Shown here piece after piece: positions 5,752 to 23,605 of a DNA stretch of 64,000 nucleotides; the stretch's first letter is position 1; the number at the start of each line of letters is the position of its first letter. Origin of the DNA: Burkholderiaceae bacterium (GTDB lineage Bacteria; Pseudomonadota; Gammaproteobacteria; Burkholderiales; Burkholderiaceae_C). The stretch lies in contig JAGOPK010000005.1 in the NCBI GenBank assembly GCA_017992055.1, forward strand, positions 62,001 to 126,000, read 5' to 3'. The position numbers and the translations under genes were made by a program. The notes beneath the pieces are model-generated. The model was not told the origin of the DNA. It saw only the letters and a program-made list of their open reading frames with translations, and did not search any database.

Positions 5752-8663
<2,912 letters not shown>

Positions 8664-8744
8664 GTGATTCGAGTGTACGGGTGGGCCGGAAAGGTTCCGC
8701 CAAGCCCCGGCCGACCAGCGTCAATGCGGGAAAGCGTGAATCAA

Positions 8745-8781
8745 TTCCAATATTGGAAATAGTTTCCAGAACGAATAACAT
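8745..8781 (+). promoter_or_regulatory. IclR-type operator overlapping a sigma-70-like promoter of the ThuA/quinoprotein operon
   Basis: TGGAAATAGTTTCCA at 8754-8768 matches the IclR-family consensus TGGAAATnATTTCCA with one mismatch. It shares its left arm with a second perfect palindrome, TTCCAATATTGGAA (8745-8758). TTGGAA at 8753-8758 can serve as a -35 and TAACAT at 8776-8781 as a -10, with exactly 17 bp between them. The same arrangement recurs in front of the TRAP operon at 16438. The local sequence is A/T-rich against a very G+C-rich background, as expected of a promoter. Binding by the IclR protein encoded at 15590-16372 is inference. Confidence 0.65.
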
Positions 8782-8892
8782 TTCTGCGAGCCCGGCCAGG
8801 CGGCCTCCCTGGGCCGTGTCTGTAGTCACCGTCGGTGTGCCGCGCGCAGGCGTGGAACGGGGCCCGCACCAGCCTTTGGAGGAGCACATCGC

Positions 8893-9849
8893 ATGAAGAC
8901 AAACCTGGTTCGCCGCAGCACCTGGGCGCTGGCGGCCGTGGCGGCCCTGGCCGGCGGCGCGGCCGTCGCGCAGACCGGAGCGGCCAAGAAGATCAACCCG
9001 AAGAACATCGACACCTACTACAACGTCTGCCGCGGCCTGAGCACCGACTGCTACAACGACTGGCACGCCTTCGACAGCCTGCCCAACAAGGTGCTGATCT
9101 ATTCGCGCACCGCCGGGCCGCGCCATGCCAACCTGGGCACGGCCATGCCGGCCGGCCTGAACCCGCCGATGGCCGAGAACAATGTGATGCAGGCCGGCCT
9201 GGTGCGCATGCTGGCGGCCGCCGGCATCGTCGCCGACTGGACCGAGGACGTGACCGTGCTCACCAGCCGCATCAACAACTACAAGGCGGTGATCTTCGCC
9301 AGCTCCAACCGCGACACGCTGTGGAATGCCGCGGCCACCACCAGCAACGACGCGGCGCGCACCGCGCTGCGCAACTACATGCGCCGTGGCGGCGGCTTCG
9401 TCGGCCTGCACAACGCCTTCGGCGCCGAGTACAACTGGCCTTATTACGAAGGCCTGCTGGGCAATGCCAACTTCTACAACCACGGCCCCAACCGCAACGG
9501 CAATGTCGTGATCACCGCGGCCGATCCGTCGACCGCCGGCGTGCCCGCCACCTTTGCCTTCCAGGACGAGTGGTACAACCTCGCGCCGTTCCCGACCAAC
9601 GTCAAGTTCCTGGCCAAGGTCGACACCTCGTCGCTGAGCCCGCTGAGCGGCGCGCCGCACCCGGGCCATGCCGACTTCCATCCGGTGGCCTGGTGCCAGT
9701 ACTACGACGGCGGCCGCTCCTGGGTCAGCACGCTGGGCCACAACGCGCATTCGTTCAACGGCAGCGGCGTCGGCGCGGCGGCCTTCGAGAAGCTGGTCGT
9801 GCAGGGCGTGATGTCGGTGATGGGCCTGACCCCGTTCTGCACCAACTGA
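8893..9849 (+). CDS. Exported ThuA-like domain protein
   Basis: 318 aa, first gene of the exported-protein operon. ATG at 8893 follows GGAGG. A Sec signal peptide covers residues 1-~27 (hydrophobic core, then AVAQTG). The mature part has the ThuA / class-I-glutamine-amidotransferase-like fold: VLIYSRTAGPRHANLG (strand and His turn), YKAVIFASSNRDTL, and RNYMRRGGGFVGLHNAFGAE, where the GGGFVGLH nucleophile-elbow-like turn is the ThuA hallmark. A late WVSTLGHNAHSFN segment is also typical. ThuA proteins take part in 3-keto-sugar (for example keto-trehalose) metabolism, but many exported members are uncharacterised. Four Cys in the mature protein could form disulfides. Its exact substrate is unknown. 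Confidence 0.85.
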   Translation: MKTNLVRRSTWALAAVAALAGGAAVAQTGAAKKINPKNIDTYYNVCRGLSTDCYNDWHAFDSLPNKVLIYSRTAGPRHANLGTAMPAGLNPPMAENNVMQAGLVRMLAAAGIVADWTEDVTVLTSRINNYKAVIFASSNRDTLWNAAATTSNDAARTALRNYMRRGGGFVGLHNAFGAEYNWPYYEGLLGNANFYNHGPNRNGNVVITAADPSTAGVPATFAFQDEWYNLAPFPTNVKFLAKVDTSSLSPLSGAPHPGHADFHPVAWCQYYDGGRSWVSTLGHNAHSFNGSGVGAAAFEKLVVQGVMSVMGLTPFCTN

Positions 9850-9860
9850 GCGGGCCGGCG

Positions 9861-10457
9861 ATGAACCTCCTCAAGCCATCCCCCTGGCGCCAGGCCCTGC
9901 GTGGCGCCGTGCTGGCCGCGGCGCTGGCCGGCGCCGGCCTGGGCGCCCAGGCCGTCGAGCAGGCACCGGGCACGCTGCAACTGGCCTTCAGCAACATCTA
10001 CAGCGTGGGCCTGTCCGGAGACAGCGACAACACCACCTGGACCGCCTGGCTGCCCACGGGCGCCACCATCACCCGATTGTCCTGGCAGGTCACGGTGGAG
10101 GCCTTCGATCCCAGCTGGCTGCAGGAGCTGACGCTGGCGCTGACCAACAGCGCCGGCGAGGGCGTGCAGTTCAGCCCGGCGCTGGACATCGCCGAATCCG
10201 GCAGCCACCAGAGCTCGGGCCAGATCGACCTGGTCAACAGCGGCCTGTCGTTTGCCGTCGGCAGCGACCGCCGGCTGCACCTGGAGTGGTACGACGCCTG
10301 GGACGACCTGGACGGCCTGCCCGATGGCCGCTGGACCCAGGCCAGCCTGCAGATCGGCTACACCGCGCCGGTGCCCGAGCCGGCCTCGGCGGCCCTGCTG
10401 CTGGCCGGCCTGCTGGGCGTGGCCGGTGCCGCCAGCCGGCGCCGCCGCCGCGACTGA
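9861..10457 (+). CDS. PEP-CTERM sorting-domain protein (first of three)
   Basis: 198 aa, starting 11 bp after the ThuA-like gene. Signal peptide at residues 1-~31 (RGAVLAAALAGAGLGAQA). The mature domain is about 140 aa, mostly beta-strand and rich in Trp/Asp (for example LEWYDAWDDLDGLPDGRW). The C-terminus from about residue 171 is a canonical PEP-CTERM tail: VPEPASAALLLAGLLGVAG followed by an Arg cluster. PEP-CTERM proteins are processed by exosortase EpsH-type enzymes and released or attached to the extracellular matrix. No exosortase gene is in this window. The function of the mature domain is unknown. Same operon as the quinoprotein. Confidence 0.88.
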   Translation: MNLLKPSPWRQALRGAVLAAALAGAGLGAQAVEQAPGTLQLAFSNIYSVGLSGDSDNTTWTAWLPTGATITRLSWQVTVEAFDPSWLQELTLALTNSAGEGVQFSPALDIAESGSHQSSGQIDLVNSGLSFAVGSDRRLHLEWYDAWDDLDGLPDGRWTQASLQIGYTAPVPEPASAALLLAGLLGVAGAASRRRRRD

Positions 10458-10574
10458 GGCGCGCCGCCGGCCCGCCGCCCCCGCATCGTCCATCGCCACC
10501 CGGCGCGCCAGGCGCGTGCCGGCGTGGCCACCTTTTGCCCGCATCCGGGTGCCCGCCACCCGAGGAGAGCCTCC

Positions 10575-12605
10575 ATGTTCCTCACCAACCTGCGCCTGCT
10601 TGCCGCGGGTGCCCTGCTGCTGCCGCTGGCGGCGGCTGCGGTCGACAACTGCTGCCTGGCCACCACCACCGACTTCCCCAAGGTCGGCGGCAACCTGGGC
10701 AACCAGAACTACAGCTCGCTGGCCAAGATCCACAAGGCCAACATCGGCCAGCTGGGCGCGGCCTGGCTGACCAGCCTGGAAGGCGGCGCCAAGTCCGGCA
10801 ACAACCAGAGCACGGCGGTGGCCGTCAACGGCGTGCTCTACATCGAGACCGCCCAAGGCCGCGTGCATGCGGTGGACGGCAAGACCGGCGCCGTGAAGTG
10901 GAGCTACAACCCTGGCCGCGGCGGCCAGACGCGGCGCGGCGTGGCCGTCGGCGATGGCAAGGTCTATACGCTGACCACCGGCAACTATGTGATCGCACTC
11001 GACCAGAACACCGGCCAGGTGGTCTGGGAGCGGCAGTACAACGGCTACGGCAACATCGCCAAGGTGGCCGTGGTTTACCACGACGGCATGATCTACGTCG
11101 GCACCAACGACGGCAACCGCGGCGCGGCCCTGGCCTTCCATGCCAGCAACGGCGACCTGGCCTGGCACTTCTGGGGCACGGCCGCGCCGGGCACCATCGG
11201 CGGCGACACCTGGGAAGGCGACACCTACCTGACCGGTGGCGCGACACCCTGGATCCACCCGGCCATCGACCCGGTGCTGAACACGGTGTACTGGACCTTC
11301 GGCAATGTGCGCGCCGGCTCGTCGCAGAACGGCTCCAGCCGCGGCGGCCAGAACCTGTTCGGCAATTCCATCGTGGCCATGGATGCCAAGACCGGCGTCT
11401 ACAAATGGCACTTCCAGTCGGTGCACCACGACATCTGGGACATGGACAACGTGATGTCGCCGGTGCTGGCCGACATCACGGTCAAGGGCCAGCCGCGCAA
11501 GGCCGTGGTCTATGGCAGCAAGACCGGCATGTACTACATCCTGGACCGTGCCACTGGCGCGCCGCTGATCGGCATCGACGAGAAGCCGGTGCCGCAGGAT
11601 GCGCGCCAGAAGACCTGGCCGACCCAGCCCTATCCGCGTGGCGGCAGCTTCGTGCCCACCTGCCCGACCACCGACGGCCCGGCACGCGCCGTGCCGAACT
11701 TCAAGCAGGGCTGCCTGTTCGTGCCGCACTGGGACGAGCCCATCCTGTCCTTCCCCGGCCAGGGCGGCGGCGCCGACTGGAACCACCAGTCCTTCAGCCA
11801 CAGCACCAAGCTGATGTACACCGGCGTCGGCTACGTCGCCGTGGCGCACTCGCTGACCGAGGCCAGCAACGGCCTGCGTCCGCTGGGCACGCCGATGTCG
11901 GGCGGCGTGGTGGCGGTGGACCCCAGCACCAACAGCGTGGTCTGGCGCAAGTCGCTGCCCTGGTCGGTGGCCCATGGCAACGGCATCCTCAGCACGGCCA
12001 GCAACCTGCTGTTCATGGGCCAGCCCGACGGCACCCTGCTGGCCATGGACGCGCTGAACGGCCGCGACCTGTGGAAGTTCCAGACCGGCGCGGCCATCAA
12101 CGCCAGCCCGATCAGCTACCAGATCGACGGCGAGCAGTACATCGCGGTGTTTGCCGGCGGCTCGGGCCTGCCCTTTGCCGATGCGCCGCGGGGCGACTAC
12201 CTGTGGGCCTTCAAGCTGGGCGGCACGGTGGCGCCGCTGCCGGCGCCCAAGCCGCCGGCACTGCGCCGCGACATCACGGCCGCGGCGGTGGAGGGCAGCG
12301 TGGTCAACAACACCATCGTGCTCAACCGCAGCTACAGCGGCGGCGCGGTGGGCACGGTGGAGCTGGACACGGTGAATGCCATGGCGCCGCAGCACCTGCG
12401 TGTGCCGCTGGGCACGACGGTGACCTTCTCCAACCCGGCCAGCAACACCAAGCCGCACTGCGCCACGCAGTTCTTCGAAGGCCTGTTCAACATCGGACCG
12501 CTGGCCCCGGGCCAGGCCGCCGCCTACACCTTCAACCAGCGCGGCGAGTTCTTCTTCAACGACTGCACCAGCCCGCGCGCCACCGGCAAGGTGGTCGTGT
12601 ACTGA
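10575..12605 (+). CDS. PQQ-dependent quinoprotein dehydrogenase with C-terminal cupredoxin-like domain
   Basis: 676 aa from the ATG at 10575, with CGAGGAGAGCCTCC just upstream. Signal peptide to about residue 22. Residues ~30-560 form a PQQ beta-propeller (YIETAQGRVHAVDGKTGAVKW; GDTWEGDTYLTGGATPW; FGNSIVAMDAKTGVYKW), close in layout to methanol/ethanol dehydrogenases. HDIWDMD at 285-291 corresponds to the catalytic-Asp segment, and D289/D291 give the Asp-x-Asp pairing that marks lanthanide-type enzymes. The conserved Asn is present (FGN). The final ~95 residues resemble a plastocyanin-like domain, but the usual Cys-x-x-His-x-x-Met loop reads NDCTSPRATGK, lacking His and Met, so a type-1 copper site looks lost. 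No haem motif CxxCH. The substrate is unknown; it is predicted to act in the periplasm or outside the cell. Confidence 0.82.
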   Translation: MFLTNLRLLAAGALLLPLAAAAVDNCCLATTTDFPKVGGNLGNQNYSSLAKIHKANIGQLGAAWLTSLEGGAKSGNNQSTAVAVNGVLYIETAQGRVHAVDGKTGAVKWSYNPGRGGQTRRGVAVGDGKVYTLTTGNYVIALDQNTGQVVWERQYNGYGNIAKVAVVYHDGMIYVGTNDGNRGAALAFHASNGDLAWHFWGTAAPGTIGGDTWEGDTYLTGGATPWIHPAIDPVLNTVYWTFGNVRAGSSQNGSSRGGQNLFGNSIVAMDAKTGVYKWHFQSVHHDIWDMDNVMSPVLADITVKGQPRKAVVYGSKTGMYYILDRATGAPLIGIDEKPVPQDARQKTWPTQPYPRGGSFVPTCPTTDGPARAVPNFKQGCLFVPHWDEPILSFPGQGGGADWNHQSFSHSTKLMYTGVGYVAVAHSLTEASNGLRPLGTPMSGGVVAVDPSTNSVVWRKSLPWSVAHGNGILSTASNLLFMGQPDGTLLAMDALNGRDLWKFQTGAAINASPISYQIDGEQYIAVFAGGSGLPFADAPRGDYLWAFKLGGTVAPLPAPKPPALRRDITAAAVEGSVVNNTIVLNRSYSGGAVGTVELDTVNAMAPQHLRVPLGTTVTFSNPASNTKPHCATQFFEGLFNIGPLAPGQAAAYTFNQRGEFFFNDCTSPRATGKVVVY

Positions 12606-12618
12606 TCGGGAGCATTCC

Positions 12619-13419
12619 ATGAACCTCTTTTCCAAGCAGCCGCTGCGTGCGGCCACCCTGCTGATCGGCGCAGCCGCCCTGCTGGCCAGCGTGCCGGCGC
12701 GCGCCGTCGATGCCAGCGCCACGCTGCAGGTCACCCAGCTGCAGTGGATCACCACCGGCGGCGCCACGCTGCAATGGCTGGACGGCTTTGCCTACCAGGC
12801 GGCCTTCACCGAGTCGCGCGAGGCCGGTGGCCTGGGCGGCAACAGCCTGCAGGAGCCGGTGCCGCTGCTGGCCTGGAGCGATCAATCGCTGGCCACCGCC
12901 ACCGCCCATGCGGCGGCGGCTCTGCAGGCCGGCAGCGCCGGCAGCTCCAGCCTGTCGGCCAGCGCCACGCGCCATGTCTTCGATCCGCTGAACCCGCTGG
13001 TGGCTCAGCCGCACAGCGCCAGCGCCTGGCTGCAGCAGGCCGGCGCCTTCACGGCCTCGGCCACCACCCAGGTGACGGTGCTGATCGACTACCAGCTCAG
13101 CGTGGCCGCGCCCTTCGATGACCAGGGCGAGACCTTCGCCCAGGCCACGCTGACGCTGAACCTGGGCAACTTCGACAGCGGCGCCAGCTTCAGCGAGCAG
13201 CGCAGCCTGTGGTCCACCCAGCTGCTGGGCGGTGCGGGCAGCCAGAACGGCCAGCTCAGCTTTGTGCTGGACCTGGCCGATGCGCAGCAGATCGGCTGGT
13301 ACGACCTGCGCGCCAACATCGATGTCTCGGCCACCGCCGCCGTGCCCGAGCCCCAGGCCTGGGCCCTGCTGGCCGCCGGCCTGGGCGTGGTGCTGATGCG
13401 CACGCGCCGCCGCCGCTGA
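12619..13419 (+). CDS. PEP-CTERM sorting-domain protein (second of three)
   Basis: 266 aa, 13 bp after the quinoprotein with GGGAG before the ATG. Signal peptide to about residue 30 (GAAALLASVPARAVDA). The mature region is low in charge, Ala/Gln/Ser-rich and predicted beta-rich, with no family I recognise. The tail from about residue 242 is VPEPQAWALLAAGLGVVLM followed by RTRRRR, a typical PEP-CTERM signal. Co-transcription with the quinoprotein and two further PEP-CTERM genes suggests that the products are displayed together on the cell surface or in the matrix. Confidence 0.86.
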   Translation: MNLFSKQPLRAATLLIGAAALLASVPARAVDASATLQVTQLQWITTGGATLQWLDGFAYQAAFTESREAGGLGGNSLQEPVPLLAWSDQSLATATAHAAAALQAGSAGSSSLSASATRHVFDPLNPLVAQPHSASAWLQQAGAFTASATTQVTVLIDYQLSVAAPFDDQGETFAQATLTLNLGNFDSGASFSEQRSLWSTQLLGGAGSQNGQLSFVLDLADAQQIGWYDLRANIDVSATAAVPEPQAWALLAAGLGVVLMRTRRRR

Positions 13420-13436
13420 ATGCTCGGGGAGACACG

Positions 13437-14099
13437 ATGAACAACAAGAGTTCAAAGAAGGCGCGGCGTCTGGTGGCGGCGCTGGCCACGGCGCTGTGTT
13501 GGGGCGCGGGCGCCGTCTCGGCGCAGACGCTGGAGATCGGCGGCCTGACGCTGCAGCAGCAGGGCTTTGCCGACCAATGGATCAGCGGCAGCGGCAGCTT
13601 CACCACCAATGCCGCATCGCCGGCCGCGGCGCTGACCGATGCCGACCTGGCCACCTGGGTGCGCAGCGACACGCCGGGCGCCAGCGTGGTGCTGGCCTTC
13701 ACCAACAACCGCGTCGTCAACGGCGTCGGCGACGACATCGCGCTGTTCGAGGTCGGCCACGAGGCCTATGAGTATTCGCAGGAGGGCTTCGACAGCCTGT
13801 GGATCACCATCAACGGCCAGACCCGGCTGTACTTCACCACCGAGACCACGACCATCGTCGACGACCACAACGTCAACATGACGCGGCTGGACCTGAGCCA
13901 CTTCGGCCTGGCCGCCGGGGCGCAGATCGACCGCATCCAGATCGGCCTGGACTACGACACGCGCGGCTCGCTGCCGCAGCTGCAGCTGGTGGCGGCCATC
14001 CACAGCGTGGCCGCGCCGGTGCCCGAGGCGTCGAGCTGGGCCTTGCTGCTTGCCGGCCTGGCCGGCTTGTCTGGAGTGGCGCGGTGGCGACGGCGCTGA
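13437..14099 (+). CDS. PEP-CTERM-like protein with variant VPEA motif (third of three)
   Basis: 220 aa from the ATG at 13437 (GGGGAGACACG upstream). Signal peptide ending near GAVSAQT. The mature part contains ITINGQTRLYFTTETTT and DLSHFGLAAGAQIDRIQIG, a beta-sandwich-like pattern resembling discoidin/cell-surface domains, but I cannot assign a family. The C-terminal tail (from about residue 195) has the PEP-CTERM architecture, yet the signature reads VPEASSWALLLAGLAGL instead of VPEP, so the last residue of the motif is substituted. The TM stretch and the terminal RWRRR are intact. The stop overlaps the start of the next gene by 16 bp. Confidence 0.82.
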   Translation: MNNKSSKKARRLVAALATALCWGAGAVSAQTLEIGGLTLQQQGFADQWISGSGSFTTNAASPAAALTDADLATWVRSDTPGASVVLAFTNNRVVNGVGDDIALFEVGHEAYEYSQEGFDSLWITINGQTRLYFTTETTTIVDDHNVNMTRLDLSHFGLAAGAQIDRIQIGLDYDTRGSLPQLQLVAAIHSVAAPVPEASSWALLLAGLAGLSGVARWRRR

Positions 14100-15616
14100 A
14101 CCGCCGGCGCTGGCTGGCCGCCGCCGCCCTGCTGGCCTGCTGCGGCTTTGCCGGCGAGCTGGCCGCGCAATGGAAGCCGCCGCGGCCGCGGCCGGTGTCG
14201 GTGCCGGTCAACCTGATGGCGCTGAGCGAGCAGCAGCTGCTGCTCAGCGTCGACGACGGCCGCCATGGTCAGGAGCTGTGGAGCCTGGACCCGGCCACGC
14301 TGCAGGCGCAGCTGCTGGCCGATCTGCGGCCCGGCGAGCTGGGCAGTCATCCGTCGCAGCCGGTGCGCCTGGGCCAGGGAGCGGGCGCACAGGCCTGCTT
14401 TGCCGCCAACGACGGCCACAGCGGCTTCGAGCTGTGGTGCAGCGACGGCAGTGCCGCCGGCACGCGCCGCGTGGCCGACATCCGCCCCGGCCCCGAGGAC
14501 AGCGTGCCCAGCGCGCTGACCGCCGTGGGCGCGCAGCTGCTGCTGGTGGCCGACGATGGCCGCCACGGCTTCGAACTGTGGCGCAGCGACGGCACGGCCG
14601 AGGGCACGCGCCTGGTCGCCGACCTGCAGGCCGGCGCCGCCGGCAGCAATCCACGCGAGCTGGTGGCGCTGGGCGGGCGGGTGTTCTTCGTCGCCGACGA
14701 TGGCCGCCACGGATCGGAGTTATGGGTCAGCGACGGCACGACCGCCGGCACGCGCCTGGTGAAGGACCTGCGGCCCGGCGCCGCCGGTGCCGCGCCGGCG
14801 CGGCTGACGGTGCTGGGCCAGCGCCTGTACTTCGTGGCCGACGACGGCCGCCACGGCCCCGAGCTGTGGACCAGCGACGGCACGGCGCGTGGCACGCGCC
14901 TGGTGCGCGACATCCTGCCTGGCGCCCAGGGCGCGCGGCCGGCGGGGCTGACGGCCTGGCAGGGCCGGCTGTACTTTGCCGCCGACGATGGCCGCCACGG
15001 CATCGAGTTATGGACCAGCGACGGCACGGCGGCCGGCACGCGCCTGGTGCACGACCTGCGGCCCGGCGCCGCCCATGGCCTGCCGGCGCATCTGACGGCC
15101 GGCGCCGACGCGCTGTACTTCGCCGCCAGCGACGGCGCCTCGCCGGTGCAGCTGTGGCGCAGCAATGGCACATCGGCCGGCACACGCGCCGTGCCCCAGG
15201 GCCTGCCGGCCGAGCAGGCGCGGGCGGCGCTGGCCGCGCGGGCCGTGCCCGGCGAGGTGGTGCCACGCCAGGCCGTGCCCGGTGGCGAACTGCCCAACCG
15301 GCTGCTGCGCGACGGTGGCCGCCTGCTGTATGCGGCGCTGGATGCCGAGCATGGCTACGAGCTGTGGAGCAGCGATGGCACGGCCGCCGGCACGCGCTTG
15401 CTGGCCGACCTGGCGCCGGGGCCGGCCGACAGCTTTCCGCACCAGTTCACGCGCCTGGGCCAGCGGCTGTTCTTCGCCGCCGACGATGGCGAGGGCCTGA
15501 CCTCGCTGTGGTGCGAGCAGGCCGATGGCCGCATCGTGCAGGTGGCCCTGCCGCGTGGGGCGGCGGCAGCGACCCCGGTCGCCGCGGCCTCAGGCCGCGC
15601 GGCGGAACAGCGTTGA
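14084..15616 (+). CDS. Exported ELWxxDGT-repeat protein
   Basis: 510 aa from GTG 14084, chosen because TGGAG lies about 8 nt upstream and the preceding residues belong to no signal peptide. Residues 1-~25 are a signal peptide (RRRWLAAAALLACCGFAGELAAQ). The rest is about nine repeats of roughly 50 aa with core DDGRHGxELWxSDGTxxGTRLVxDLxPG; the last copies are degenerate (VQLWRSNGT, TSLWCEQ). ELWxxDGT repeats form beta-propeller-like blades in exported proteins of unknown function. It is the last gene of the operon beginning at 8893 and overlaps the convergent IclR gene by 27 bp. Confidence 0.86.
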   Translation: MATALNRRRWLAAAALLACCGFAGELAAQWKPPRPRPVSVPVNLMALSEQQLLLSVDDGRHGQELWSLDPATLQAQLLADLRPGELGSHPSQPVRLGQGAGAQACFAANDGHSGFELWCSDGSAAGTRRVADIRPGPEDSVPSALTAVGAQLLLVADDGRHGFELWRSDGTAEGTRLVADLQAGAAGSNPRELVALGGRVFFVADDGRHGSELWVSDGTTAGTRLVKDLRPGAAGAAPARLTVLGQRLYFVADDGRHGPELWTSDGTARGTRLVRDILPGAQGARPAGLTAWQGRLYFAADDGRHGIELWTSDGTAAGTRLVHDLRPGAAHGLPAHLTAGADALYFAASDGASPVQLWRSNGTSAGTRAVPQGLPAEQARAALAARAVPGEVVPRQAVPGGELPNRLLRDGGRLLYAALDAEHGYELWSSDGTAAGTRLLADLAPGPADSFPHQFTRLGQRLFFAADDGEGLTSLWCEQADGRIVQVALPRGAAAATPVAAASGRAAEQR

Positions 15617-16372
15617 GGCGTTGCTGGCGCGGCCGATCTGCTCGGCCGCCGCCACCAGCACCGGGCCCAGGCTCAGCATGCGCTCCTCGGTCAGCCGGAT
15701 CATCGGGCCGGCGATGGTGACCACGCCGACGACGCGGCCGCGTGGATCGTGCACCGGCGCGGCCATCGCCGACATGGCCGGCGCAAACACCTCGCAGATG
15801 ACCGAGAAGCCGCGGCTGCGCGCCAGCTTCAGGTGCGCCAGCAAGGCCTTGACCGTGGTCGGCGCCTTGGGGCCGAAGTGCTCGGGCTGGCCGAAGCCCT
15901 GGCGGGCCACGCGCTGCAGCGCTTCCTCGTCGCTCATCGTCGACAGCCAGGCATGACCGGCGGCACTGCAGGACAGCTGCACCGACAGGCCCATGTCGGG
16001 GTCGTAGCGCAGGCCGCTGCGTGCGCCCTGGGCCTTGGCCACGAAGGTGAGGGCGTCGCCGTCGACCACCGCCAGCCGCACCAGCTCGCCGGCCTCGGCG
16101 GCCAGCTGGTCGAGCATGGGCTGGGCGACATCGGTGATGCCGGTGGCGCTGAGAAAGCTCAGCCCCATGGCCACCAGCTTGATGGTCAGCATGTACTCGC
16201 CATGGCTCTGGTCCTGGCGCACATAGCCCAGGCGGATCAGCTCGGCCAGCAGGCGATGCGTGGCGCTGAGCGGCAGGCCCAGCGCGCCCGACACCGACGA
16301 CAGCGAGCAGCCCTCGGGATGGGCCACCAGGTGCTCCAGCACGCTGAAGCTGCGTTCGGTCTGTCCGCTCAT
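15590..16372 (-). CDS. IclR-family transcriptional regulator
   Basis: 260 aa from the ATG at 16372; longer in-frame starts would cross the divergent promoter. N-terminal winged helix-turn-helix (SVLEHLVAHPEGCSLSSVSGAL ... LSATHRLLAELIRLGYV), then the IclR effector domain (LVRLAVVDGDALTFVAKAQG; CSAAGHAWLS; GVVTIAGPMIRLTEER). The family senses organic acids or aromatic intermediates (IclR, KdgR, PcaR/PcaU) and binds TGGAAAT-type palindromes. The gene sits between two plus-strand operons whose promoters each contain such a palindrome (8754 and 16439), so it is the obvious regulator of both and probably of itself. Confidence 0.9.
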   Translation of the reverse strand: MSGQTERSFSVLEHLVAHPEGCSLSSVSGALGLPLSATHRLLAELIRLGYVRQDQSHGEYMLTIKLVAMGLSFLSATGITDVAQPMLDQLAAEAGELVRLAVVDGDALTFVAKAQGARSGLRYDPDMGLSVQLSCSAAGHAWLSTMSDEEALQRVARQGFGQPEHFGPKAPTTVKALLAHLKLARSRGFSVICEVFAPAMSAMAAPVHDPRGRVVGVVTIAGPMIRLTEERMLSLGPVLVAAAEQIGRASNASTLFRRAA

Positions 16373-16437
16373 GTCCGGGGCCCCTGCTGAGATGTGATGC
16401 CGATCAGTGTAGCCAAAGTCGTGAAAAAAATTACCGA

Positions 16438-16466
16438 TTGGAAAAGTTTTCCATATCGTATAGAGT
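16438..16466 (+). promoter_or_regulatory. IclR-type operator and promoter of the TRAP operon
   Basis: TGGAAAAGTTTTCCA at 16439-16453 is a perfect 7-1-7 inverted repeat close to the IclR consensus. As at 8753, the left arm provides a TTGGAA -35 (16438-16443). TAGAGT at 16461-16466 gives a 17-bp spacer (TATAGA at 16459 is the alternative at 15). It lies between the divergent iclR start (16372) and the TRAP substrate-binding protein start (16504). The shared architecture with 8745-8781 is seen directly; regulation is inference. Confidence 0.7.
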
Positions 16467-16503
16467 GCGCCACACCGCCCACAAACCTCCAGGAGACATT
16501 GCC

Positions 16504-17520
16504 TTGAACCGTTCCCTGCTTTCCACCGCCGCGCTGGCCTTGTGCTTCGGTCTTTCGCTGGGCCTGTCGGCGCCGGCACAGGCCCAGGCCAGCGAGCGGG
16601 TGATCCGCTTCGGCCACCTCAACAACACCGACCACCCGGTCAGCCTGGGCGTGAAGAAGTTCGCCGAGCTGCTGGCGGCCAAGAGCGGCGGCAAGCTCAA
16701 GGTGCAGGAGTTCCCGTCCTCGCAGCTGGGCAACGAGCTGCAGCAGCAGTCGGCCCTGCAGGGCGGCGTGCAGCAGATGTCGGCGCCGGCCACCACCTCG
16801 CTGGCCGGCATCGTCAAGGAGTTCGGCCTGATCGACTTTCCGTTCGCCGTGTCCAGCTTTGCGCAGGCCGATGCGCTGCTGGATGGTCCCTTCGGCCAGG
16901 CGCTGATCGCCAAGCTGCCCGAGAAGGGCCTGGTGGCCCTGGGCTACTGGGACCTGGGCTTTCGCAACGTCACCAACAGCCGCCGCGCCATCACCAAGCC
17001 CGAGGACCTGGACGGCCTGAAGCTGCGCGTGATCCCCAACCCGGTGTTCATCGAGACCTTCAAGGCCTTCAAGGCCAACCCGGTGCCGATGCCCTTTGCC
17101 GAGCTGTACGGCGCGCTGGAGGCCAAGGCCGTGGACGGCCAGGAGAACCCGTTCGCGGTGATCCTGTCGAACAAGTTCTTCGAGGTGCAAAAGCACGTCA
17201 GCGCCACCAACCACGTGTACGCCGCCAACATCGTGCTGGTGAGCAAGAAGTTCTGGGACCAGCTCAGCCCGGCCGAGCAGAAGATGATGCACGAGGCCGC
17301 CGACGAGTCGCGTGCCCACCAGCGCCAGGTCAGCCGCGCCGCGGCCGCCAAGGCCGTGGGCGAGCTGCAGGCCAAGGGCATGCAGTACAACGAGCTGAGC
17401 CCGGCCGAGCAGGGGCGCATGCGCGCCATTGCCAAGCCGGTGACCGAGAAGTTCGCCGCCAGCTATGACCCGGTGCTGGTCAAGCTCTACAACGACGAAC
17501 TGGCCAAGGTGCAGAAATGA
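16504..17520 (+). CDS. dctP: TRAP transporter substrate-binding protein (DctP family)
   Basis: 338 aa. I chose TTG 16504 because AGGAG lies 8 nt upstream and it gives a clean signal peptide (ALALCFGLSLGLSAPAQAQA). The mature protein is a DctP-type solute receptor: VIRFGHLNNTDHPVSLG, the DLDGLKLRVIPNPVFIETFKAF segment containing the Arg that grips substrate carboxylates, then the FAELYGALEAKAVDGQENP motif of the family. It captures an organic acid in the periplasm and hands it to DctQM. The identity of the acid is not evident. It overlaps aroQ by four bases. Confidence 0.92.
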   Translation: MNRSLLSTAALALCFGLSLGLSAPAQAQASERVIRFGHLNNTDHPVSLGVKKFAELLAAKSGGKLKVQEFPSSQLGNELQQQSALQGGVQQMSAPATTSLAGIVKEFGLIDFPFAVSSFAQADALLDGPFGQALIAKLPEKGLVALGYWDLGFRNVTNSRRAITKPEDLDGLKLRVIPNPVFIETFKAFKANPVPMPFAELYGALEAKAVDGQENPFAVILSNKFFEVQKHVSATNHVYAANIVLVSKKFWDQLSPAEQKMMHEAADESRAHQRQVSRAAAAKAVGELQAKGMQYNELSPAEQGRMRAIAKPVTEKFAASYDPVLVKLYNDELAKVQK

Positions 17521-17987
17521 GCACGGCCACCGCCCAGCGGCCGCTGACCATCCTGGTGCTGCACGGCCCCAACCTCAACCTGTTCGGCCGGCGCGAGCCG
17601 CACATCTACGGCACCACCACGCTGGCGCAGATCGATGCCCGGCTGCTGGAGCTGGCCGGCAGCCTGGGGGTGCAGATCAAGAGCCTGCAGTCCAACCACG
17701 AGGGCGCGCTGATCGACTTCCTGCACCACCACATCGACACCGCCGACGGCGCGCTGATCAACCCCGCCGGCCTGACCCAGCACGGCGTGCCGCTGCACGA
17801 TGCGATCAAGGCCATGCCCTTCCCGAGCATCGAGGTGCACATGTCCAACATCGCTGCCCGCGAGGCCTGGCGCGCGCACTCCATCATCTCGCCGGCGGTG
17901 CGCGGCACGGTGCAGGGCCTGGGCGTGCAGAGCTATCTGTCGGCGCTGCGCGGCCTGGTGGAGCTGCTGCGCGAGGCGCGCACATGA
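17517..17987 (+). CDS. aroQ: Type II 3-dehydroquinate dehydratase in the TRAP operon
   Basis: 156 aa; typical length is about 145-150. Family motifs are present: LHGPNLNLFGRREPHIYG (with the catalytic Tyr after the flexible Arg loop), NPAGLTQHG in place of the usual NPAAYTHTS, EVHMSN with the catalytic His, and GLGVQSYLSAL. It interconverts 3-dehydroquinate and 3-dehydroshikimate, either in the shikimate pathway or in quinate degradation. The start overlaps dctP and the stop overlaps dctQ (ATGA at each), so it is embedded in the transporter operon. This placement, and the divergence at the NPAxYTH loop, suggest a catabolic rather than biosynthetic job, or an altered substrate. Confidence 0.88.
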   Translation: MSTATAQRPLTILVLHGPNLNLFGRREPHIYGTTTLAQIDARLLELAGSLGVQIKSLQSNHEGALIDFLHHHIDTADGALINPAGLTQHGVPLHDAIKAMPFPSIEVHMSNIAAREAWRAHSIISPAVRGTVQGLGVQSYLSALRGLVELLREART

Positions 17988-18487
17988 GTCCGCCGGCCCG
18001 GTCCGGCTGGGTGCGAGGCCTGGATCTGCTGTGTGCCGCCTGCCTGGCGGTGATGGTGGTGCTGGTGGCCGGCAACGTGCTGCTGCGCTACCTGTTCAAC
18101 AGCGGCATCACGGTCAGCGAGGAACTGGCGCGCTGGCTGTTCATCTGGCTGACCTTCCTGGGTGCCATCGCCGCGCTGGCCGAGCGTGGCCACATGGGCA
18201 GTGATCTGCTGCTGGACCGGCTGGGCCCGCGCGCACAGCGCTGGCTGGGCCTGGCCGGCACGCTGCTGATGCTGGCCACCAGCGTGCTGCTGCTGCGCGG
18301 TGCCTGGCTGCAGACGCGCATCAACTGGGATGTGCAGGCGCCGGTCAGCGGCGCCTCGATGGCCTGGTTCTATGCCTCGGGCCTGGTGTTTGCCGCCGGT
18401 GCCATCCCCTGCCTGCTGCTGCAGCTGCGCAAGCAGTGGCGCGGCCAGGCGCTGACGCCGTCGGCCGACGTCCTCAAGGAAGTCTGA
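17984..18487 (+). CDS. dctQ: TRAP transporter small membrane subunit (DctQ)
   Basis: 167 aa with four predicted membrane helices. The DctQ signature VSEELARWLFIWLTFLGA is at about residues 45-62, followed by a GHMG motif. It bridges the receptor and the large permease. It overlaps aroQ by four bases, and its TGA overlaps the start of dctM by one base, so translation is coupled. Confidence 0.92.
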   Translation: MSPPARSGWVRGLDLLCAACLAVMVVLVAGNVLLRYLFNSGITVSEELARWLFIWLTFLGAIAALAERGHMGSDLLLDRLGPRAQRWLGLAGTLLMLATSVLLLRGAWLQTRINWDVQAPVSGASMAWFYASGLVFAAGAIPCLLLQLRKQWRGQALTPSADVLKEV

Positions 18488-19767
18488 TGACCATCCTGGT
18501 CTTTCTCGGCGCCCTGCTGGGCGCCATGGCCCTGGGCGTGCCCATCGCCTTTGCGCTGCTGGTCTCGGGCGTGGCCCTGATGTGGCAGCTGGACCTGTTC
18601 GACACGCAGATCCTGGCGCAGAACGTGATCAACGGCGCCGACAGCTTTCCGCTGCTGGCGGTGCCGTTTTTCATGCTCGCCGGCGAGATCATGAACGTCG
18701 GCGGCCTGTCGCGGCGCATCGTCCACCTGGCGCTCACGCTGGTGGGCCACAAGCGTGGTGGCCTCGGCTACGTCACCATCCTGGCGGCCTGCCTGATGGC
18801 GGCGCTGTCGGGCTCGGCGGTGGCCGACACCGCGGCGCTGGCGGCCCTGCTGCTGCCGATGATGGTGGCCGCCGGCCACGACCGCGCGCGCTCGGGCGGG
18901 CTGATCGCATCGGCCGGCATCATCGCGCCGGTGATCCCGCCGTCGATCGGCTTCGTGGTCTTCGGCGTGGCCGCCAATGTGTCCATCGGCAAGCTGTTCC
19001 TGGCCGGCATCGTGCCGGGGCTGCTGATGGGCGTGGCGATTGCCGTGGCCTGGTGGTGGGTGGCGCGGCGCGAGGCGGTGCAGCCGCCGGCCGCGGCCAG
19101 CCTGGGCCAGAAGCTGCAGGCGCTGCGCGAGGCCACCTGGGCCCTGGTGCTGCCGCTGATCGTGCTGGTGGGCCTGAAGTTCGGCGTGTTCACGCCCACC
19201 GAGGCGGCGGTGGTGGCAGCGGTGTATGCGCTGTTCGTGTCGGTCTTCGTCTACCGCGAGCTGAAGCCTTCGCAGCTGCTGGCGGTGTTCGTGGCCTCGG
19301 CGCGCACCTCGGCGGTGATCATGTTCCTGGTGGCCGCGGCCATGGTCAGCGCCTGGCTGATCACGGTGGCGCAGATCCCGGCGCAGATGGTCAGCCTGCT
19401 GCAGCCCTTCCTGGAGCATCCGACCCTGCTGCTGGTGGCCATCATGCTGCTGGTCATCGCCGTGGGCACGGCCATGGACATGACGCCGACCATCCTGATC
19501 ATGACGCCGGTGCTGATGCCGGTGGTCAAGGCCGCGGGCATCGACCCGGTGTACTTCGGCGTGCTGTTCATGATCAACAACGCCATCGGCCTGATCACGC
19601 CGCCGGTGGGCACGGTGCTCAACGTGGTGGCCGGCGTCGGCAGGATGAAGATCGACGAGGTCACGCGCGGCGTGCTGCCGTTCATGACCGCGCAGTTCTT
19701 CGTGCTGTTCCTGCTGGTGCTGTTTCCGGCCCTGGTGCTGGTGCCGGCGCGCTGGCTGGCGGGCTGA
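18487..19767 (+). CDS. dctM: TRAP transporter large permease subunit (DctM)
   Basis: 426 aa, about 12 helices, starting at ATG 18487 inside the dctQ stop. Family features: the N-terminal MTILVFLGALLGAMALGVPIAFALL, the GGLGYVTILAACLMAALSGSAVADTAALA loop region, IIAPVIPPSIGF, and the C-terminal GLITPPVGTVLNVV. It is a sodium-driven importer of organic acids together with DctP and DctQ. Its stop is directly adjacent to the stop of the convergent sigma-54 activator. Confidence 0.94.
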   Translation: MTILVFLGALLGAMALGVPIAFALLVSGVALMWQLDLFDTQILAQNVINGADSFPLLAVPFFMLAGEIMNVGGLSRRIVHLALTLVGHKRGGLGYVTILAACLMAALSGSAVADTAALAALLLPMMVAAGHDRARSGGLIASAGIIAPVIPPSIGFVVFGVAANVSIGKLFLAGIVPGLLMGVAIAVAWWWVARREAVQPPAAASLGQKLQALREATWALVLPLIVLVGLKFGVFTPTEAAVVAAVYALFVSVFVYRELKPSQLLAVFVASARTSAVIMFLVAAAMVSAWLITVAQIPAQMVSLLQPFLEHPTLLLVAIMLLVIAVGTAMDMTPTILIMTPVLMPVVKAAGIDPVYFGVLFMINNAIGLITPPVGTVLNVVAGVGRMKIDEVTRGVLPFMTAQFFVLFLLVLFPALVLVPARWLAG

Positions 19768-21798
<2,031 letters not shown>

Positions 21799-21892
21799 GG
21801 TGGAAAGCTCCTGGGTTCTGGGTCGGCCGGCGGCTATGCAAGACCGTGCATGGGGACAACCCCGGGGGCCGTGGCGCGGCTGTTGCCGCCGC

Positions 21893-21919
21893 TGTGCCAT
21901 GGCGCAACGCCATGACACG
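21893..21919. promoter_or_regulatory. Inverted repeat, candidate upstream activating sequence
   Basis: TGTGCCATGGCG, three bases, then CGCCATGACACG: ten of twelve arm positions are complementary. It sits 86 bp upstream of the -24 element at 22005, a typical enhancer distance for a sigma-54 activator, and lies in the divergent gap between that activator gene and the aldehyde dehydrogenase gene. Confidence 0.6.
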
Positions 21920-22004
21920 GCGGCGGGGCGAATGCCGGGTCCAGGCGCAGGTTCCGGGCCAGGTTTGCGCCGCGATGGCGGGGCCGGCGGTTGGAACCGC
22001 GGCA

Positions 22005-22020
22005 TGGCATGGGCCCTGCA
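22005..22020 (+). promoter_or_regulatory. Sigma-54 (-24/-12) promoter of the aldehyde dehydrogenase gene
   Basis: TGGCATGGGCCCTGCA matches the consensus TGGCACG-N4-TTGCA at the invariant GG (22006-22007) and GC (22018-22019) with correct spacing. Transcription should start near 22031, leaving a ~50-nt leader with a GAGAGGAG ribosome-binding site before ATG 22082. Confidence 0.75.
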
Positions 22021-22081
22021 CTGAAGGCCTGGCTGTTGCCCACCCACCACCCACCATCCAACACCACCGAGAGGAGCCTCC

Positions 22082-23605
<1,524 letters not shown>

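Follow-up and report, generated by a model that had tools for sequence, protein, structure and literature searches.

An IclR-family regulator that appears to control two neighbouring operons through a shared palindromic box in a Burkholderiaceae bacterium

A 64,000-nucleotide stretch of DNA from a Burkholderiaceae bacterium (GenBank assembly GCA_017992055.1, contig JAGOPK010000005.1, positions 62,001 to 126,000), called the window here, holds two predicted operons on either side of a gene for an IclR-family regulator (Table 1). The first operon encodes, in order, a ThuA-domain protein, PEP-CTERM protein a, a quinoprotein resembling dehydrogenases that depend on pyrroloquinoline quinone (PQQ), PEP-CTERM proteins b and c, and an ELWxxDGT repeat protein, and its 3' end overlaps the convergent IclR gene. 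The second, divergent from the IclR gene, encodes DctP, an AroQ-like dehydroquinase, DctQ and DctM, so that all three components of a TRAP transporter are matched. The regulator carries both domains of its family over cut-off (HTH_IclR, PF09339, 4.9e-14; IclR_C, PF01614, 7.5e-26). Gene direction and spacing suggest this operon structure; a terminator scan of positions 8600-19900 returned seven weak candidates against 3.7 expected, and no candidate in the gap preceding the quinoprotein gene. One local IclR regulator appears to switch both neighbouring gene sets together, and the two sets together probably let the bacterium use quinate- or shikimate-type plant compounds.

A sequence-only reading of the window had proposed that palindromes beginning at 8754 and 16439 each supply a TTGGAA -35 hexamer to an operon promoter, with a -10 hexamer at 17 bp, and that the IclR gene (15590-16372, minus strand) lies between the two operons. 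All of this was confirmed on inspection, the -10 hexamers being TAACAT and TAGAGT and both spacers 17 bp long. The same reading gave the box to the two operons only, and here it needed amendment: the box stands at both operon promoters, and box 2 also lies at the promoter of the IclR gene, about 74 bp upstream of its start. Since box 2 is in the promoter region shared by the IclR and DctP genes, it may control the IclR gene as well.

Table 1. Boxes, putative promoters and genes of the locus, in window coordinates
Feature	Position	Strand	Basis and remarks
Degenerate second box	8735..8749	+	19 bp 5' of box 1; 4/12 mismatches
Putative sigma-70 promoter, ThuA operon	8753..8781	+	TTGGAA 8753-8758, 17 bp, TAACAT 8776-8781
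IclR-type box 1, TGGAAATAGTTTCCA	8754..8768	+	Overlaps -35 of ThuA operon; pattern search
ThuA-domain protein, 318 aa	8893..9849	+	Pfam ThuA E 5e-40; signal peptide judged by eye
PEP-CTERM protein a, 198 aa	9861..10457	+	Profile matches
PQQ-dehydrogenase-like quinoprotein, 676 aa	10575..12605	+	Profile and structure matches; signal peptide and C-terminal cupredoxin-like stretch by eye
PEP-CTERM-like protein b, 266 aa	12619..13419	+	C-terminal matches below cut-offs; no Pfam match
PEP-CTERM protein c, 220 aa	13437..14099	+	Profile matches
ELWxxDGT repeat protein, 510 aa	14084..15616	+	TIGR04534, 493 bits
IclR-family regulator, 260 aa	15590..16372	-	HTH motif PLSATHRLL; profile matches
Degenerate second box	16422..16436	+	17 bp 5' of box 2; 3/12 mismatches
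Putative sigma-70 promoter, TRAP operon	16438..16466	+	TTGGAA 16438-16443, 17 bp, TAGAGT 16461-16466
IclR-type box 2, TGGAAAAGTTTTCCA	16439..16453	+	IclR-DctP intergenic region; pattern search
TRAP solute-binding protein DctP	16504..17520	+	Profile matches; TTG start chosen by eye
AroQ-like type II dehydroquinase	17517..17987	+	NPAGLTQHG where solved dehydroquinases have GLTHTS-type stretches
TRAP small permease DctQ	17984..18487	+	Profile match
TRAP large permease DctM	18487..19767	+	Profile match

The two boxes agree at all 12 defined positions and are the only matches to TGGAAANNNTTTCCA in the window at up to two mismatches, where 0.21 would be expected; two such matches were present in 2 of 100 shuffles of the window. 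Across the whole genome (5,895,641 bases) exact TGGAAANNNTTTCCA is found at boxes 1 and 2 only, and the reversed control pattern is not found. When up to two mismatches were allowed to a 16-letter pattern, both strands of the genome gave 19 matches versus 7 for the reversed control, and for this reason only exact or near-exact sites were counted as evidence.

Relatives of the locus were collected by scanning genome contigs with an alignment of the quinoprotein and keeping the best 80 of 587 loci; L and G numbers below are our handles for loci and genomes. A match to this IclR at E 1e-40 or better occurs in 9 of 100 genomes, the bacterium's own included. The set with this type of IclR consists of 12 loci with ThuA or DctP from 10 Burkholderiales genomes (the window, L040, L042, L043, L056, L058, L061, L062, L089, L125, L135 and L138). 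For counts at the heads of transcription units, L043 and L055, which are the same place in Xylophilus, were counted once, and the ThuA gene of L056 and the second ThuA gene of L061 were treated as internal. Left out of these counts were the second DctP gene of L138 as a paralogue (52% identical, best six mismatches), L041, which has this type of IclR and no ThuA or TRAP match within its 20 kb, L044, L045, L057 and L060, which have variant boxes and an IclR without Leu at the residue discussed below, and L059, L063 and L086, where no such IclR was found in the locus.

A box with at most one mismatch precedes all nine DctP unit heads (8/8 without the window) and eight of the nine ThuA unit heads (7/8 without the window). 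None of nine internal quinoprotein genes has such a box, their best sites showing four to six mismatches, and the sole quinoprotein gene that heads a unit (L061) carries two one-mismatch boxes. The ThuA box of L125 lies about 330 bp from the start, with TACGAT at 17 bp, and thus falls outside the 330-bp search window. For comparison, about 1.6% of 350-bp windows in 17 loci contain a site at this level, true boxes included. The comparison shows the boxes recurring together with this type of IclR: the palindrome is present at the regulator's own locus and is conserved with the regulator, as would be expected of an operator. Quinoprotein loci that lack this IclR in the fetched sequence (Ramlibacter L059, Rhizobacter L063 and Schlegelella L086) have best sites with three to five mismatches, and L059 and L063 have a different IclR nearby. 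In these two loci (L059 3342-9657 and L063 3259-9654) the other IclR gene, an aldehyde dehydrogenase, a class III CoA-transferase and a thiamine-diphosphate enzyme are located beside the quinoprotein gene, perhaps a different wiring of the same pathway.

Conservation extends across rearrangements of gene order. A genome of the same genus (L040) has the entire locus, including the PEP-CTERM and ELWxxDGT genes, with boxes at both promoters, and both boxes are kept in L042, where gene order has changed, and in Xylophilus Leaf220 (L043), where the ThuA-quinoprotein direction is flipped. In Variovorax boronicumulans (L056) the DctP, ThuA, quinoprotein, pqqB, pqqC and pqqE genes run in the same direction behind a single one-mismatch box. 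The joint regulon put forward in the sequence-only reading is supported by this co-conservation at DctP and ThuA heads; orthologous operons standing apart and without the box had been named there as the observation that would count against it. In Acidovorax sp. CF316 the operons do stand apart, on different contigs, with IclR and ThuA-quinoprotein in L089 and IclR and DctP-AroQ in L135, yet each has an exact box.

Exact sites were also counted in 11 genomes, 10 of them chosen for carrying this IclR with the operons and G103 added as a contrast. Of 13 exact sites, 12 are at ThuA, DctP or IclR promoters; G041 and G103 have no exact site, and a third exact site in Xylophilus (L145) is beside a gene judged by eye to be TerC-like. 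The other 58 of 60 relatives (own genome and G012 excluded) contain 16 exact sites versus 2 for the reversed control, so exact sites do occur elsewhere, as would be expected were the boxes random IclR-like palindromes whose pairing is coincidental. However, in the bacterium's own genome both exact sites flank the IclR gene and none is found elsewhere, and the boxes persist at unit heads from genus to genus even where genes have been reordered. Shuffles of the window, the reversed control pattern, random windows and the comparison with relatives thus leave a chance origin vanishingly improbable, and we consider it ruled out.

It is also conceivable that the regulator controls only the TRAP operon and itself, with the ThuA box bound by another IclR paralogue or being a relic. 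A first look at the genome gave 36 IclR candidates and more distant paralogues may exist, while Acidovorax CF316 and V. boronicumulans each have two IclR copies at two box-bearing loci. Against this, a single IclR reaches E 1e-40 in the bacterium's own genome, and the two boxes do not differ at any of the 12 defined positions and have no exact counterpart elsewhere in it, which makes such a division of labour quite improbable.

Promoter geometry was compared across 18 box promoters, leaving out the quinoprotein head of L061 and the ThuA promoter of L125. A -10 hexamer with at least four of six matches stands at exactly 17 bp in 12 of the 18, a count that 0 of 5000 letter shuffles reached. A second, weaker box lies 17-19 bp upstream, with at most four mismatches in 12 positions in 13 of the 18 promoters; its mean at offset -18 is 4.44 mismatches of 12, versus 8.2-10.6 outside offsets -19 to -17. 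This second box is missing at the ThuA gene of L061 (nine mismatches) and at the ELWxxDGT gene of L125 (eight). Because tandem sites spaced 18-22 nt apart are described for 94 groups in the text of a survey of IclR regulators (PMC8222616), the tandem arrangement appears typical of the family and is read here as suggesting tetramer binding.

In most promoters the strong box extends over the -35 into the beginning of the spacer, a position that would favour blocking of RNA polymerase. The opposite mode, in which the IclR protein is an activator of both operons like PcaU or PobR, has a precedent in that IclR-family activators-repressors of quinate and protocatechuate genes exist (PcaU, as treated in PMC4213383), yet the box position makes it an unlikely mode here.

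Regulator and box also vary together. Leu occupies IclR position 35, within the motif PLSA, in all 13 proteins with a main box of TGGAAA type (the 12 loci and L041), and ten other aligned IclR proteins have Arg (eight), His (one) or Lys (one) there. A candidate box is present in seven of these ten non-Leu loci, with none assigned for the other three, and in six of the seven the A at arm position 6 is absent from one arm or from both (TGGAAT, TGGAAC or mixed). We take this pairing as support for the regulon that falls short of proof, because the groups are also phylogenetic and the boxes were picked by hand.

Several observations weigh against the proposed regulon. TTGGAA itself is kept in just 8 of the 18 promoters, the -35 and -10 hexamers of both window promoters are weak at four of six matches each, and a generic promoter scan of the window called neither the ThuA-operon nor the TRAP-operon promoter; for these last two reasons the promoter case rests on conservation in relatives. 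The ThuA gene of L058 has only two two-mismatch boxes, and the IclR gene of L089 has no box at its own promoter (best four mismatches). As to the residue-35 pairing, L057 combines Arg with A at position 6 of both arms, and L058 and L061, although of Leu type, have additional weaker boxes in which that position is occupied by another base. With these points included, a shared IclR regulon of both operons remains very probable from the comparative evidence; binding of the IclR protein, repression rather than activation, and autoregulation would be its predicted features.

For a wider comparison of gene content, 78 of the 80 loci were grouped into 23 actinobacterial, 13 Burkholderiales and 42 distant ones (L065 and L087 left out). 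The composition given earlier for the first operon, ThuA, quinoprotein, PEP-CTERM and ELWxxDGT, recurs in relatives for only some of its members. Those that recur are ThuA and the quinoprotein, together with the TRAP genes and AroQ. The PEP-CTERM genes are mostly lineage-specific, all three being present in L040 only, with weak relatives (30-34%) of one of the proteins in L063 and L136, and ELWxxDGT occurs in 5 of the 13 Burkholderiales quinoprotein loci. A one-mismatch box stands 66 bp upstream of a separate ELWxxDGT gene in Pseudacidovorax (L125), and no box was found at the ELWxxDGT gene of L062 (best six mismatches), whose estimated start is uncertain. L061 contains tandem ThuA genes (64 and 67% identical to that of the window) followed by an ELWxxDGT gene (13798-15737). 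Downstream of the TRAP operon in the window (19768-23605), a sigma-54 activator-like gene on the minus strand and a divergent aldehyde dehydrogenase gene were seen by eye, and no box at up to two mismatches lies within this region.

The quinoprotein belongs firmly to its superfamily (PF01011, 294.8 bits versus a cut-off of 26.7). It scores below cut-off against both the QuiA-type quinate/shikimate PQQ dehydrogenases (TIGR03074, 221.3 versus 832.65 bits) and the methanol/ethanol family of PQQ alcohol dehydrogenases (TIGR03075, 283.2 versus 480.05 bits). Trp, Asn, Asp and Lys positions of the protein align with residues that presumably form the PQQ pocket of alcohol dehydrogenases. The match to the latter enzymes (PDB 1yiq and 1kb0; TIGR03075) is significant across the propeller, but their Cys-Cys pair and metal-ligand Glu do not line up with the window protein. 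A cupredoxin copper site, suspected by eye in the C-terminal stretch, was rejected, since the His expected downstream of the Cys is not constant (Thr, His or Phe occur there). In four loci from Bacilli (L097, L098, L104 and L105) a quinoprotein 39-40% identical to that of the window is located near TRAP DctP and DctM genes, and no ThuA match was found there.

The gene neighbourhoods of the quinoprotein bear on both its cofactor and its pathway. PQQ synthesis genes (pqqC/E) are present in 14 of the 23 actinobacterial loci versus none of the 42 distant ones, ThuA in 21 of 23 versus none of 42, and pqqB, C and E lie downstream of the quinoprotein gene in two Variovorax loci (L056 and L062). In both of these a prolyl-aminopeptidase-like alpha/beta hydrolase gene is found 3' of pqqE (L056 11327-12274; L062 15306-16289). 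Twelve of the 23 actinobacterial loci have a gene for a QuiC-type 3-dehydroshikimate dehydratase no more than about 10 kb away, versus one of the 42 distant ones (L130, a weak match of 27% identity). All seven actinobacterial genes tested matched the QuiC model at 269-421 bits over the dehydratase part only. The 16 of 23 actinobacterial genomes that were searched hold just one or two QuiC genes each at E 1e-60, and a chance closeness to the quinoprotein gene is therefore very unlikely. AroQ relatives occur in four of the 23 actinobacterial loci and quinate/shikimate-dehydrogenase-like genes in two.

Individual loci bring these functions together more closely. A Microbacterium locus (L090) combines the quinoprotein, TRAP genes, an AroQ-like gene and two candidate QuiC-like genes. 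Within the genus of the window, the IclR gene and DctP-AroQ of L045 are accompanied by a second TRAP system and by genes resembling QuiC (165 bits) and shikimate dehydrogenase. In L047, L048 and L051 a TGGAAT-type box separates a sister IclR gene from a divergently oriented shikimate-dehydrogenase-like gene.

A number of results speak against a quinate/shikimate pathway. No QuiC match anywhere exceeds the whole-protein cut-off of the model (1200 bits), and no QuiC-type gene was found in any of the 13 Burkholderiales quinoprotein loci. The 3-dehydroshikimate dehydratase domain is present somewhere in 12 of 13 genomes searched; in the search of V. gossypii (G102), which has the regulon, none was seen. 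On contig 17 of the bacterium's own genome a QuiC-like gene and a canonical AroQ gene form a separate pair, so the variant AroQ of the TRAP operon may do something else. The latter protein matches PF01220 and NF003807 and reaches 153.1 bits against TIGR01088, below its cut-off of 169.85. Gln replaces an expected His, which we take to be a substrate-contacting active-site residue, in every TRAP-linked AroQ orthologue of at least 70% identity that covers the position. These orthologues share NPAGLTQHG instead of the canonical TH stretch, and the His is likewise missing from less closely related AroQ proteins encoded in quinoprotein loci L060, L066 and L090. As for the cofactor, the bacterium's own genome (G000) has no pqqE over cut-off (best 107.7 bits), the same-genus genome G012 does have pqqE, and no pqqC was found in the own genome by a search that had no positive control. 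Its quinoprotein may therefore need PQQ from neighbours or be idle.

Some of these features could be expected if the regulon were real and its substrate a sugar, a sugar acid or another cyclitol, such that the quinoprotein and ThuA oxidise and cleave a sugar or glycoside outside the cytoplasm, TRAP imports a sugar acid and the AroQ relative dehydrates it. Besides the loss of the AroQ His, the second-best PDB match of DctP is 7bbr, presumably a sugar-acid binding protein, DctM resembles YiaN of a diketogulonate TRAP transporter (538.8 bits, below the cut-off of 800), and ThuA is named for trehalose use. Among the titles listed in a literature search, none joins a 3-keto-glycoside role of ThuA to this gene set. 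However, 14 of 23 actinobacterial loci, versus one of 42 more distant quinoprotein loci, have QuiC-type, AroQ-like or quinate/shikimate-dehydrogenase-like genes together with the same quinoprotein, and a sugar-type substrate is in our judgement rather unlikely. We lean towards a quinate/shikimate-type catabolic role for the regulon on the strength of these neighbourhoods, with a ring acid other than quinate as a possible substrate.

In the combined picture of regulation and pathway, the IclR protein (15590-16372) would bind tandem palindromes at two promoters, a strong TGGAAANNNTTTCCA box over the -35 and, about 18 bp upstream of it, a weaker one. It would thereby control its own gene as well as the ThuA/quinoprotein and TRAP-AroQ operons. 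Bound to both boxes as a tetramer, it would most likely block the -35 until a pathway metabolite releases it. The periplasmic quinoprotein would then oxidise its substrate, for example quinate to 3-dehydroquinate, the TRAP transporter would import substrate or product, the AroQ-like enzyme would dehydrate the imported compound, and a 3-dehydroshikimate dehydratase encoded elsewhere would lead to protocatechuate. Taken as a whole, this explanation (an IclR repressor on tandem palindromes, a joint regulon and quinate/shikimate-type catabolism) is in our view likely. More tentatively, and with somewhat less than even confidence, the quinoprotein and ThuA may represent a second kind of PQQ-dependent quinate/shikimate-type dehydrogenase that does not belong to the QuiA family and is common to Burkholderiales and actinobacteria. 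In Burkholderiales an IclR repressor would place it under joint control with a TRAP importer and a modified dehydroquinase, with ELWxxDGT as a regulated part of the pathway.

The regulon gives a testable function to the recurring ThuA-quinoprotein pair, to ELWxxDGT proteins and to the TRAP-linked AroQ, which are now filed under general family names, and it places an operator and an inducer test at hand for one branch of IclR regulators. Should quinate or shikimate prove to be oxidised by the quinoprotein, this would constitute a further PQQ route from common plant acids to protocatechuate, common to actinobacteria and Burkholderiales.

Among the publication titles listed in literature searches, none describes this gene set or regulon. 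Tandem palindromes are a feature of the IclR regulogs of Suvorova and Gelfand 2021 (PMC8222616), among which DctPQM and quinate/shikimate gene sets are included; the main text of that paper has no match for TRAP, dehydroquin-, PQQ, Variovorax or Comamonadaceae, and its supplementary regulog tables may list this IclR group. E. coli IclR, with the operator TGGAAATNATTTCCA (given in PMC8222616), is alike in its IclR domains, in a 15-bp palindrome with TGGAAA/TTTCCA arms and in local operon control. The window protein nevertheless scores 114 bits, below the equivalog cut-off of 380, and E. coli IclR controls the glyoxylate bypass, whereas the window system has two tandem-box promoters and serves a transporter and exported enzymes. 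The qui-pca genes of Acinetobacter under PcaU, as presented in PMC4213383, are similar in IclR-family control and in periplasmic oxidation of quinate by QuiA, followed by dehydroquinate dehydratase and QuiC. Acinetobacter QuiA is of the membrane-bound PQQ type, while the window system differs in having another quinoprotein family, ThuA, import through TRAP and an exported ELWxxDGT protein.

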